Below are positions 11,801-58,535 of a DNA stretch of 64,000 nucleotides, one piece after another. The position numbers and the translations under genes were made by a program. The stretch is from Tenuifilum sp. 4138str (GTDB lineage Bacteria; Bacteroidota; Bacteroidia; Bacteroidales; Tenuifilaceae): positions 1 through 64,000 of the forward strand of contig NZ_JBGCUE010000001.1 of NCBI RefSeq assembly GCF_041102575.1, in the 5' to 3' direction. The notes beneath the pieces are model-generated. The model was not told where the DNA came from and ran no database searches. It saw nothing but the letters and a program-made list of their open reading frames with translations. Position 1 is the stretch's first letter, and each line of letters starts with the position of its first letter.

Positions 11801-11941
11801 GCTCTTTGCCATGCTTTTCCGTTGCGATGCAACGCTTCAGGATTGTTCTTTGGAAAATGTATTGCGTGCATCGCAAAATAATTTGAACACCTCAATACCC
11901 TGGGTTAAAACCCAGGGCTAATGTGATTTGCCCTTTCAGGG
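11801..11941. repeat. 141-bp direct repeat, copy B
   Basis: This is the second copy of 11068-11208, offset by exactly 733 bp, ending just before the PAP2 gene promoter region. Confidence 0.9.
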
Positions 11942-11992
11942 CGGAGCGTTAGGTTAAATTACATTTACAAATGGCTTAATAGTCATATTTAG

Positions 11993-55787: not shown

Positions 55788-56927
55788 CTAGTGTTTAGGC
55801 AATAAGGCTAAACCTGAATGGTTAAAAACAGATTTTGGCCGTTCCCTTAGGTTGTAATCCGAGGCCATGGATTCGGCATAGGCACCACAAGAATGGACAA
55901 CAAGCAAATCGCCACGTTCTGTATTGGGGAGGTTTACCTGCTCGCCAAAACAATCGGTTGTTTCGCAAATTGGCCCAACCACATCGTAGGTGGCAATAGT
56001 AGGGTATTCAATTTTACTTATGTTCTCAATGCGGTGTATGGCGCCATAGAGTGCCGGACGGATTAGGGCATTCATTCCAGCATCTACAATGGCAAAGTTT
56101 CGCGATTTAGTAGTTTTGGTATACAGCACTCGGGTGTATAGCTGGCCACATTGGCCAACCAATGAGCGGCCAAGCTCAAAATGGATAGTTTGCTCCTTTC
56201 CGGGGTTGAGCCACTGGTTGATGGTTTTGAAATACCCTTCAAAGTCAGCTATCCTATTAATCGAGGGATTGATATAGTCAATTCCCAAACCTCCACCCAG
56301 GTTTAGGTAAGGAAGTGCTTTGCTTTGTAACCTTTCCTGAATACGGTTTACCTCAAGGGCTAGGTTCTTGAACACTTCCATGTTCATTATCTGTGAACCA
56401 ATATGAAAGTGTAGTCCAACCAGGTTGATATTCTTATACTTATTTGCAGAGTTTAATATCAAACTTGCCTCTTCCGCACTCATTCCAAACTTATTCTCTT
56501 TTAGTCCGGTGGTAATTGACTTGTGGGTGTTGGCGTCCACATTAGGGTTGATGCGAAGCGCTATACTGGCAGTTTTGTTCAACTTTTGTGCAATCTGTTC
56601 AATTACCTGAAATTCCTGAACCGACTCGCAATGGATGCATTGAATATTCTGCTCAATGGCATACTCTATTTCCCAATCGGTTTTACCAACTCCGGCAAAC
56701 ACAATGCCTTGGGGCTTAAATCCATTTTTCAAGGCAACTTTAATCTCGTTTCCGCTAACACAATCGGCGCCAAAACCCGCACCCGAAATGATCTTCAAAA
56801 GGGCAGGGTTGGCATTAGCTTTAAGTGCGTAATGAATAGTGTACCCATACCTTGTTGCTTGCGCAACTGCTGCGTTCAGTGTATCGTTCAGTAGCGCTAA
56901 ATCATACTGGTAGAATGGAGTTTGCAT
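55788..56927 (-). CDS. lysA: Diaminopimelate decarboxylase
   Basis: This fold-type III PLP enzyme makes lysine from meso-diaminopimelate, the last step of the pathway. The 379-aa product has the PLP lysine Lys36 in HYALKANANP, NKFGMS, the HFHIGSQ phosphate-contact motif and the DVVGPICETTDCF substrate loop. It follows lysC by 2 bp on the same strand and should be co-transcribed and controlled by the lysC leader. The length is slightly shorter than E. coli LysA (420 aa), as usual for this subfamily. Confidence 0.95.
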   Translation of the reverse strand: MQTPFYQYDLALLNDTLNAAVAQATRYGYTIHYALKANANPALLKIISGAGFGADCVSGNEIKVALKNGFKPQGIVFAGVGKTDWEIEYAIEQNIQCIHCESVQEFQVIEQIAQKLNKTASIALRINPNVDANTHKSITTGLKENKFGMSAEEASLILNSANKYKNINLVGLHFHIGSQIMNMEVFKNLALEVNRIQERLQSKALPYLNLGGGLGIDYINPSINRIADFEGYFKTINQWLNPGKEQTIHFELGRSLVGQCGQLYTRVLYTKTTKSRNFAIVDAGMNALIRPALYGAIHRIENISKIEYPTIATYDVVGPICETTDCFGEQVNLPNTERGDLLVVHSCGAYAESMASDYNLRERPKSVFNHSGLALLPKH

Positions 56928-56929
56928 GG

Positions 56930-58291
56930 CTAAAAGGGGTTTGCTTCAATGTTCTGGTGGGTTGAATCACTTACACTCACCGCCGGGAAAAGCTGCTGTA
57001 GCAACCTTAAGGCCTGAACCTTGTAGTGCGAATCAATCAGAAACGAGATATTGTTTACGCTTCCTCCGTAGGAGATCATCCGTATAGGTATCTCGCGCAG
57101 GCAATCGAAAACCATGGCTGCATAGCCCTTATGCGATGCTGGGAAATCGCCAACTACGCAAACAATGGTTTGGTTCCGTTCCACTTCCACCTGCGCAAAT
57201 TGGCTTAAAACATTTACAATCTTTTCAAGGTTAATAGTGCTATCAATGGTAAGCGATATGGATACCTCCGATGTAGTAATCATATCGACTGGGGTTTTGT
57301 AAGTGTCAAAAACCTCAAAAACCCTGTGCAGGAAGCCGTAGGCTAAAAGCATCCGCGACGACTTGATGTTTATTGCTGTAATACCATCCTTTGCTGCCAC
57401 TGCCTTTATCCCTTTCCGGTTCTTCATGGATGATATTACCGTTCCTTCGTCTATAGGGTTCAAAGTGTTCTTCAACACAACAGGGATATTCTTTACCTTG
57501 CAGGGTTGAATGGTTTGGGGGTGAAGTATTTTTGCGCCAAAGTAGGCAAGTTCGGCAGCCTCGTCGTACGATAGCTGTCGCAATGGGAAAGTATTTGTAA
57601 CAAAGCGTGGGTCGTTGTTGTGTACCCCATCTATATCGGTCCAAATTTGCACCTCGTTTGCGTTCAGCACATTTCCAACAATGGCTGCGGTAAAATCGCT
57701 TCCACCTCGGCCCAAGTTATCAACCAACCCATTTGCATTGCGGCAAATAAAACCCTCGGTTACATAAATTTTTGCAAAAGGGTTATTTTGCATGAGGCGT
57801 TTTAGGTTCTGTTCAATGTAAAAGAAATCGGGCTCGCTATCCTTGTCAATCCTCATGTATTCCAGTGCAGGAATGTACGCGGCTCTTTTCCCCTGCTCTG
57901 TTAGTAGCATGTGGAATAGTCCTACCGATAGTTGCTCTCCTAGGGCAACTATATTCCGCGAATCGGTCTGGTTGAAGCCTTCAATCAATCTCGATAGAAT
58001 CCGCAAAAACAGGTTGCTAATAAACTCTTCACCCCTTTTTCGGTACATTTTTGAATCAAATAGTCCGTCGGCGGTTTTTATGTGTTTGTCCTCAAGCTCT
58101 TTAGTTTTTTCAATTGCCTCGAGCATCTTACCCGACTGTGCCAGCTCTGTGATTTCCACTAAGCTGTTTGTAACTCCTGCCATGGCCGATAAAACCACTA
58201 CAATGGGTTCATCGCCATTAAGCAGCTCGTTTACCTTTCTGAGCCTATCGGCATTACCAACCGATGTTCCGCCAAACTTTAAAACTTTCAT
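56930..58291 (-). CDS. lysC: Aspartate kinase
   Basis: This enzyme phosphorylates aspartate, the first step to lysine, threonine, methionine and isoleucine. The 453-aa product starts with KFGGTSVGNADRL (kinase start), has GRGGSDFTAAI and WTDIDGVHNNDPR in the kinase domain, and two ACT domains at about residues 310-445 for allosteric control (DMITTSEVSISLTI and VGDFPASHKG). The first gene of the lysC-lysA unit; a 36-codon leader ORF and intrinsic terminator lie upstream, so transcription is likely attenuated. Confidence 0.95.
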   Translation of the reverse strand: MKVLKFGGTSVGNADRLRKVNELLNGDEPIVVVLSAMAGVTNSLVEITELAQSGKMLEAIEKTKELEDKHIKTADGLFDSKMYRKRGEEFISNLFLRILSRLIEGFNQTDSRNIVALGEQLSVGLFHMLLTEQGKRAAYIPALEYMRIDKDSEPDFFYIEQNLKRLMQNNPFAKIYVTEGFICRNANGLVDNLGRGGSDFTAAIVGNVLNANEVQIWTDIDGVHNNDPRFVTNTFPLRQLSYDEAAELAYFGAKILHPQTIQPCKVKNIPVVLKNTLNPIDEGTVISSMKNRKGIKAVAAKDGITAINIKSSRMLLAYGFLHRVFEVFDTYKTPVDMITTSEVSISLTIDSTINLEKIVNVLSQFAQVEVERNQTIVCVVGDFPASHKGYAAMVFDCLREIPIRMISYGGSVNNISFLIDSHYKVQALRLLQQLFPAVSVSDSTHQNIEANPF

Positions 58292-58323: not shown

Positions 58324-58354
58324 TAAAAAAAGGCCTGCAGGGCTCTGCAGGCCT
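58324..58354 (-). terminator. Attenuator terminator upstream of lysC
   Basis: Minus-strand stem AGGCCTGCAG (5' arm, 58354-58345) pairs with CTGCAGGCCT (58340-58331) across a 4-nt loop and runs into seven T. It lies between the leader ORF stop (58380) and lysC (58291). Its 5' arm contains GGCCTGC, the exact complement of GCAGGCC at 58407-58413 in the leader, which could form the antiterminator. Confidence 0.85.
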
Positions 58355-58379
58355 AACACTCAATATCATTGTAATACTT

Positions 58380-58490
58380 TTATGCTGATTTTATCAATGC
58401 GTCAACGGCCTGCTTGTGGGTCTGTTTTTTCATGGTAATAACCATCTGTTTCATGCAAATGGTTTGCATGAAAAACTGTTTATTACTCAT
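58380..58490 (-). CDS. lysC leader peptide (36 aa)
   Basis: A short ORF on the minus strand starts at ATG 58490 and stops with TAA at 58380-58382. The peptide has five Met, three Thr, three Ile and six Lys (17 of 36 residues), all amino acids of the aspartate family and their end-products: its middle reads MKQMVITMKKQTHK. This is what is expected of a thrL-like leader whose ribosome stalls when charged tRNA is short, followed by an intrinsic terminator and then lysC. A 9-bp inverted repeat TCATGCAAA/TTTGCATGA within codons 7-14 could be a pause hairpin. The ORF is too short for standard gene calls. I infer the function; no experimental support is known to me. Confidence 0.75.
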   Translation of the reverse strand: MSNKQFFMQTICMKQMVITMKKQTHKQAVDALIKSA

Positions 58491-58535
58491 GGTATAGCAA
58501 GCCGAAAATTCCATTTTTGTGCTATTTTACTTTTG

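Follow-up and report, generated by a model that had tools for sequence, protein, structure and literature searches.

A candidate ribosome-mediated attenuator with lysine and methionine codons upstream of lysC-lysA in Bacteroidales

Which end-products govern the expression of aspartate kinase at a Bacteroidales locus where a short open reading frame (ORF) and an intrinsic terminator precede lysC? The window analysed here, the whole stretch of 64,000 nucleotides from Tenuifilum sp. 4138str (contig NZ_JBGCUE010000001.1; surrounding genome 3.28 Mb), carries on its minus strand, in the order leader, lysC, lysA and with pheT divergent, the genes for a monofunctional aspartate kinase (lysC, 56930-58291; TIGR00657, 313.8 bits, over the cut-off) and diaminopimelate decarboxylase (lysA, 55788-56927; TIGR01048, 391.8 bits, over the cut-off), which begin and complete lysine biosynthesis; the LysC proteins of relatives are 90-98% identical. 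A preliminary description of this DNA had proposed that translation of the leader attenuates transcription of lysC, and the retention of the leader ORF, the pairing arms and the terminator in relatives supports such ribosome-mediated attenuation. On the basis of the comparisons presented below, we put at about three in four the probability that the region is a ribosome-mediated transcription attenuator of lysC-lysA that senses charged tRNA-Lys and tRNA-Met together.

The 3' part of the leader matches the original account. A 10-bp terminator (AGGCCTGCAG-AGCC-CTGCAGGCCT, 58354-58331, all features being on the minus strand), made of a 5' arm (region 3, AGGCCTGCAG, 58345-58354) and a 3' arm (region 4, CTGCAGGCCT, 58331-58340) and completed by a run of seven T (58325-58331), is present in the sequence ahead of lysC. 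Likewise, GCAGGCC (58413-58407) is the exact complement of GGCCTGC (58353-58347) in the terminator 5' arm, in support of the mutually exclusive antiterminator that had been postulated. The antiterminator strand, region 2 (AGCAGGCCG, 58406-58414), has two alternate partners by shuffle tests and fold snapshots: region 3 and a further element that is absent from the preliminary description, region 1 (CGGCTTGCT, 58496-58504, leader codons 4-7), an anti-antiterminator strand that pairs with 58414-58406 in the minimum free energy (MFE) fold. Addition of the 1:2 pairing gives the classic 1:2 / 2:3 / 3:4 attenuator.

The 36-residue ORF initially drawn at 58490-58380, of which 17 residues (counted by eye) are Lys, Met, Thr or Ile, is present and its frame is right, but its start lies 24 nt too far downstream. 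A Met aligned with position 58490 occurs in only 5 of 18 leaders (the window, L003, L004, L010 and L014), and this start was rejected; the frame opens upstream at the conserved ATG 58514 and encodes a Lys- and Met-rich peptide of 44 residues (MEFSACYTMSNKQFFMQTICMKQMVITMKKQTHKQAVDALIKSA; ORF 58380-58514), with an ORF at the matching place in all 18 leaders. Counted from its first base, a TATTTTTG box (58543-58536) lies 29 nt ahead of this ATG; we take it to be a Bacteroidetes-type -7 promoter element (consensus TAnnTTTG). TAnnnTTG is placed likewise in relatives: in all leaders but one (17 of 18) its first base precedes the leader ATG by 26-30 nt, and no such box was found for L015. On the basis of this resemblance we predict that transcription starts near 58530, about 20 nt ahead of the leader.

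The comparison with relatives that the preliminary description had proposed bears out the conservation of the ORF, the antiterminator arm and the terminator. Among the 27 genomes of family f1, 16 have a matching lysC at E 1e-60 or better, and inspection by eye revealed a leader ORF, region 2 and a terminator upstream of lysC in all 16; the same three elements precede lysC in both genomes of a second Bacteroidales family (f80). Removal of duplicates left a comparison set of 18 leaders from 7 genera, and it is the comparison across this set that brings out the parts of the element, the frame-specific Lys and Met codons and the complementarities between the arms.

The codon content of the leaders (729 internal codons in the 18 leaders) was compared with that of the same DNA read in its two other frames (711 codons each), a reference that controls for base composition. 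Met codons number 90 in frame versus 3 and 2 out of frame (12.3% of internal codons versus 0.3-0.4%), and Lys codons 109 versus 42 and 49 (15.0% versus 5.9-6.9%). As leaders within a genus share ancestry, these counts are not independent; with one leader per genus, the counts by frame are 33, 2 and 0 for Met (33 of 35 in frame, binomial p 5e-14) and 39, 16 and 20 for Lys (p 7e-4). Gln is also commoner in frame (43 versus 14 and 29 in the 18 leaders). Thr codons stay at background (54 versus 45 and 45; 20, 15 and 16 with one leader per genus, p 0.23), and Ile codons show at most a weak rise, being at background relative to one other frame (52 versus 48) and raised relative to the second (17), with 21, 16 and 4 when one leader per genus is counted and thus not clearly above one of the frames. 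An excess confined to the coding frame implies that the leader is translated, and it singles out Lys and Met as the best candidate signals; Thr and Ile are unsupported and were rejected as signals on these counts.

That a single leader senses all the aspartate-family products (Lys, Met, Thr and Ile), as the preliminary description had it, is accordingly very unlikely, only Met and Lys standing out in the frame test. The idea draws on the 17 of 36 residues of the shorter ORF that belong to these four amino acids, and on the share of Ile codons in frame, which at 21 of 41 with one leader per genus lies above one in three (p 0.014). Against it stand the counts of Thr (54 versus 45 and 45) and Ile (52 versus 48 in one other frame), together with the homoserine kinase model TIGR00191, which passes its cut-off in only one of the 27 family genomes (G023) and in none of the other 26; that one genome additionally carries a Thr-rich leader at thrA. 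The Rfam Threonine operon leader has no match in the window. ThrC (TIGR00260) in the window genome scores 178 bits, just over the cut-off of 167.1, so the absence of threonine synthesis is not proved. At L162 (G000:C11), a threonine-synthase-like gene just over the TIGR00260 cut-off is followed by a gene whose product resembles, by eye, an iron-sulfur protein of the xanthine dehydrogenase type, a neighbour which suggests that this threonine-synthase-like gene is perhaps not a biosynthetic ThrC.

The main regulatory codons of the window leader lie at 58425-58454 (ATG AAA CAG ATG ... ATG AAA AAA), the last two Lys codons beginning 17 and 14 nt ahead of the core of the antiterminator. Every one of the 18 leaders places one or more Lys codons at 14-22 nt from the region 2 core on its upstream side, and 16 of them place two there, while 76 of the 90 Met codons are located 12-75 nt upstream of region 2. 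With the ribosome footprint that we assume, a stall at these codons would leave region 2 mostly uncovered. A point against the model is that most regulatory codons reside in the loop separating the two arms of 1:2 and not within region 1, and stalling there need not hide region 1 itself.

The Lys codons are the codons most fixed in position relative to region 2, as they would be if the attenuator read lysine alone through those placed 14-22 nt ahead of region 2 and if the Met codons were a by-product of a CATG hairpin or of a start-codon-like context. Met codons do lie partly inside self-complementary CATG hairpins, CATG pairing with CATG in the inner hairpin, and Lys-rich, Met-poor leaders exist before lysC in families f19 and f99. 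Yet ATG is nearly restricted to the coding frame (90 versus 5 in the other frames combined) even though hairpin sequences and positions differ by genus, and Met occupies every second codon in L020-L022 (MAMAM, MDMSM and MAMSM); we therefore regard a lysine-only attenuator as unlikely, though less so than one for all four products. The peptide itself appears a much poorer candidate for the sensor. The seven leaders from the genus of the window, and L013 besides, all contain the motif MKQM, a constancy that would suit a leader peptide that stalls the ribosome upon binding a metabolite, in the way that nascent TnaC arrests the ribosome with tryptophan. Such an arrest is extremely improbable in the face of a Met/Lys order and spacing that vary by genus (MAMAMLMKKRM, MKQMVITMKK, MMKKDMFKGKK) with composition constant.

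Several comparisons bear on the pairing of the RNA. First, the 2:3 complementarity beats leader shuffles (p < 0.05) in 17 of 18 leaders, the one failure being L005; region 2 of L005 and L017 is GCAAGCC, which places an A-C mismatch in 2:3 (p 0.44 and 0.027, respectively). For the window leader the terminator-arm match has p 0.0066, and with one leader per genus the Fisher combination gives 2e-7. Second, regions 2, 3 and 4 are changed jointly in L026 (CTGTAGG / CCTACAG / CTGTAGG), with 2:3 and 3:4 retained. Third, region 2 (GCAGGC) is read as K-Q-A in some genera and as C-R-P or R-R-L in others, and its being read in two different frames indicates that it is conserved as RNA.

The 1:2 pairing was assessed by duplex and ensemble tests against shuffles in place of base-by-base covariation, the covariation count having been set aside because region 1 is out of register between genera (alignment A2). 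The duplex test gave p 0.018 for the window, p < 0.05 in 14 of 18 leaders and a Fisher p of 5e-8 with one leader per genus, the four leaders not below 0.05 being L014 (0.095), L018 (0.109), L021 (0.194) and L023 (0.424). When region 1s were swapped between genera, at least 7 foreign-genus region 1s paired equally well or better in 5 of 18 leaders (L017, L018, L021, L022 and L023). By the ensemble test, only 8 of 18 leaders are singly below 0.05 and 10 are at 0.05 or more. In MFE folds without the terminator, the opening 40 nt of the ORF are the partner of 3-7 of the 7 region 2 core bases in all 18 leaders. Inside the 1:2 hairpin of the window resides an inner hairpin (TTTCATGCAAA-CCA-TTTGCATGAAA, 58449-58473). 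The inverted repeat that forms it had been noted as a 9-bp repeat and a possible separate pause hairpin; it is present, but with 11 bp (58473-58463 / 58459-58449), and the predicted fold makes it the inner part of the larger 1:2 hairpin, where it may still act as a pause hairpin. By eye, its stem is kept in L014 with a C-G pair changed to T-A.

Without the terminator, the leader folds with a z score of -3.3, and a long stable hairpin of this kind would also be compatible with a riboswitch that binds a metabolite (a lysine aptamer, for instance) and is accompanied by an incidental ORF. A lysine riboswitch (RF00168) controls lysC in other bacteria and is listed for Shewanella lysC in PMC2659441. 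No Rfam riboswitch reached its gathering score in the window, RF00168 was rejected for want of a covariance-model match at that score and the scan of the window found no Rfam family of any kind at gathering score in the leader region; together with the in-frame codon bias, this leaves the riboswitch with a very small probability indeed. The sole Rfam match of the window is an Acido-Lenti-1 RNA (RF01687) at 11898-11943 on the plus strand (39.8 bits versus a gathering score of 37), here in a Bacteroidales genome.

Fold snapshots of partial transcripts are consistent with an ordered exchange of partners by region 2. Before region 3 exists, all 18 leaders form 1:2, each with 4 or more expected pairs, a result to be read beside the control, in which a shuffled region 1 already averages 2.1-6.7 pairs. 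Masking of the upstream part lets 2:3 form in every one of the 18 leaders, and when region 4 is present 3:4 dominates. At equilibrium with regions 1, 2 and 3 free, 2:3 is stronger than 1:2 in 16 of 18 leaders; equilibrium folding as the sole basis of the off state was therefore rejected, and the off state must be kinetic, with 1:2 made first. The E. coli trp leader has a similar order of strengths.

The leader ORF with its pathway-product codons, the intrinsic terminator before the first gene, the antiterminator and the protector (1:2) hairpin make up the elements of an attenuator, from which we infer ribosome stalling, its effect on the RNA and Met as a true signal. During synthesis of the leader, region 1 (codons 4-7) would pair with region 2 near the leader end. 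When Lys- and Met-tRNA are both ample, the ribosome would run through the ORF and depart, 1:2 would re-form and, with region 2 sequestered, 3:4 would pair and transcription would end before lysC; in leaders whose stop codon lies near region 2, a ribosome paused on that codon may mask region 2 as well. When either tRNA is short, the ribosome would stall at the Met and Lys codons between regions 1 and 2 and open 1:2, and the freed region 2 would capture region 3 before region 4 emerges, permitting RNA polymerase to read into lysC-lysA. If so, aspartate kinase would be under the control of a single leader in which both Lys and Met codons are translated; no description of this pairing turned up in the open-access papers searched.

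Why should a leader of lysC carry Met codons? The window genome contains two aspartokinases over the TIGR00657 cut-off (frames of 453 and about 430 codons), both without a homoserine dehydrogenase (HSD) part, and one HSD (PF00742) that is standalone (453-codon open frame). This hom gene lies in a gene run that we read as a methionine operon, metY-metX-hom-metH-metF, in which metY and hom are over NCBIfam cut-offs, metH and metF were assigned by eye and metX matches TIGR01392 with 335.5 bits, below a cut-off of 500 that none of 14 control genomes passes. A SAM riboswitch (RF00162, 73.8 bits) is located upstream of this operon; at 7 loci around metX/hom in other genomes no Rfam match was found within flanks that may stop short of the operon start. 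As no HSD with its own aspartokinase was found here, lysC probably supplies methionine besides lysine, and this wiring of the pathway is likely to be the reason for the Met codons in its leader. Counting against this argument, the second aspartokinase (L051) could also feed methionine.

Leaders from other families permit a comparison of codon content with wiring. The four Lys-rich, Met-poor lysC leaders, from f99 (L036, L041) and f19 (L063, L067), contain 27 Lys and 4 Met among 82 internal codons; the Met:Lys ratio differs from the 90:109 of the Lys+Met leaders with p 6e-4 and the Met share alone with p 0.045, in codons that are not independent. All three f19 genomes have fused aspartokinase-homoserine dehydrogenase (AK-HSD) frames of 818-821 codons, although in the third (G253) no Lys-rich, Met-poor leader was seen by eye upstream of lysC, and the two f99 genomes gave no HSD match. 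Conversely, genomes with Lys+Met leaders have a standalone HSD where one is found, including the two f80 genomes (frames of 421 and 425 codons). We therefore entertain, tentatively and at somewhat less than even odds, a two-input leader whose codon content follows wiring, with Met codons where HSD lacks its own aspartokinase and lysC must therefore feed methionine, and with many Lys but few Met codons where methionine is fed by a fused AK-HSD or where no homoserine is produced. Across just four families, leader content goes with the set of products that rely on lysC. The worst-fitting case is G023, which has a fused AK-HSD plus a standalone HSD and yet keeps a Lys+Met leader at lysC (L018), which argues against a simple wiring rule; its fused AK-HSD carries its own leader, ending ITTTTTTTTTPVRE. 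Nor is a standalone HSD sufficient for a Lys+Met leader, as it also occurs in other genomes of the order among the matches listed, for example in G081, where a strict terminator script reported no leader (L080). If the relation held, leader codons would be a readable record of the end-products that depend on a gene, and the difference between leaders with both codons and those poor in Met suggests that pathway wiring could be inferred from leader codons, a prediction testable across genomes. Upstream of the fused thrA of G023 we observed a Thr leader, MFASSFSITTTTTTTTTPVRE (or with a longer start), with nine consecutive Thr (L179, G023:C101).

Across the order, lysC was located at 115 places, and 90 upstream regions were covered: 3 of f1, 27 by eye and 60 by a script whose strict terminator search may miss imperfect stems and which reported 4. 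Among these 90 of 115 regions, Lys+Met leaders are confined to f1 and f80. A covariance model (R1) built on region 2 and the terminator, searched over 295 genomes of the order, matched in 72 at E 0.01; above 50 bits it matched only f1 and f80 lysC leaders and one site upstream of a hisG-like gene. Weaker R1 matches were inspected at seven loci (L186-L192), and upstream regions were read for L185, L186 and L191. Upstream of hisG-like genes lie tandem His-rich leader ORFs, MNLQVLHTAHHQHYIAGMGKLYIIL then MNQKHHHIHHHHSSENQTRQKIL, each with its own terminator, in L185 (G222, f97) and MKLLSANKHHLVHQYN then MNLIHKHHKYNHHSVL in L191 (G193, f64), apparently double His attenuators in Bacteroidales (gene names by eye). 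Upstream of a trpB-like gene (by eye) in G085 (L186), a leader with a Trp pair, MRTILVNTYWWRYLQLTKS, is followed by a terminator. Just upstream of lysC in three f78 genomes (L045, L046, L048) there is a common element, GTGGATGAGGAAGGTCTCCC..ATGACGTCCAAACTTAAAATT, without an Rfam match; all three belong to one genus, so its conservation is weak evidence.

By all comparative signs in the sequences, the lysC leader is a conserved attenuator of the classical kind with an unusual codon pair. Classical ribosome-mediated attenuators are known from the trp, his, thr, leu and ilv leaders of Enterobacteria, and leaders of the thrL type carry Thr and Ile codons. Like thrL-type leaders and the Thr leader of G023 (L179), the lysC leaders can report more than one aspartate-family product; unlike these Thr-rich leaders, the latter of which precedes thrA, they are rich in Lys and Met. 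The f19 and f99 lysC leaders resemble them in having a short Lys-rich ORF and a terminator, and differ in their 4 Met of 82 codons and in the fused AK-HSD or missing HSD match of their genomes. The present analysis favours the view that classic attenuation operates in Bacteroidales, a topic on which published statements are general: a Flavobacterium transcriptome gave strong clues to leader peptide attenuation ahead of amino-acid operons (PMC9723704) and short ORFs reminiscent of leader peptides are mentioned for Bacteroides thetaiotaomicron (PMC7366714), lysC being absent from the main texts of both papers. As in the classical attenuators and the Shewanella leuA leader, for which a terminator, an antiterminator and an anti-antiterminator are described (PMC2659441), a codon-bearing leader ORF and 1:2, 2:3 and 3:4 pairings precede a biosynthetic operon. 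Unlike in those systems, with which a relation in sequence was compared via Rfam only, the target here is lysC-lysA, the host belongs to the Bacteroidales, the two codon types are Lys and Met, and most of these codons occupy the loop that separates region 1 from region 2.
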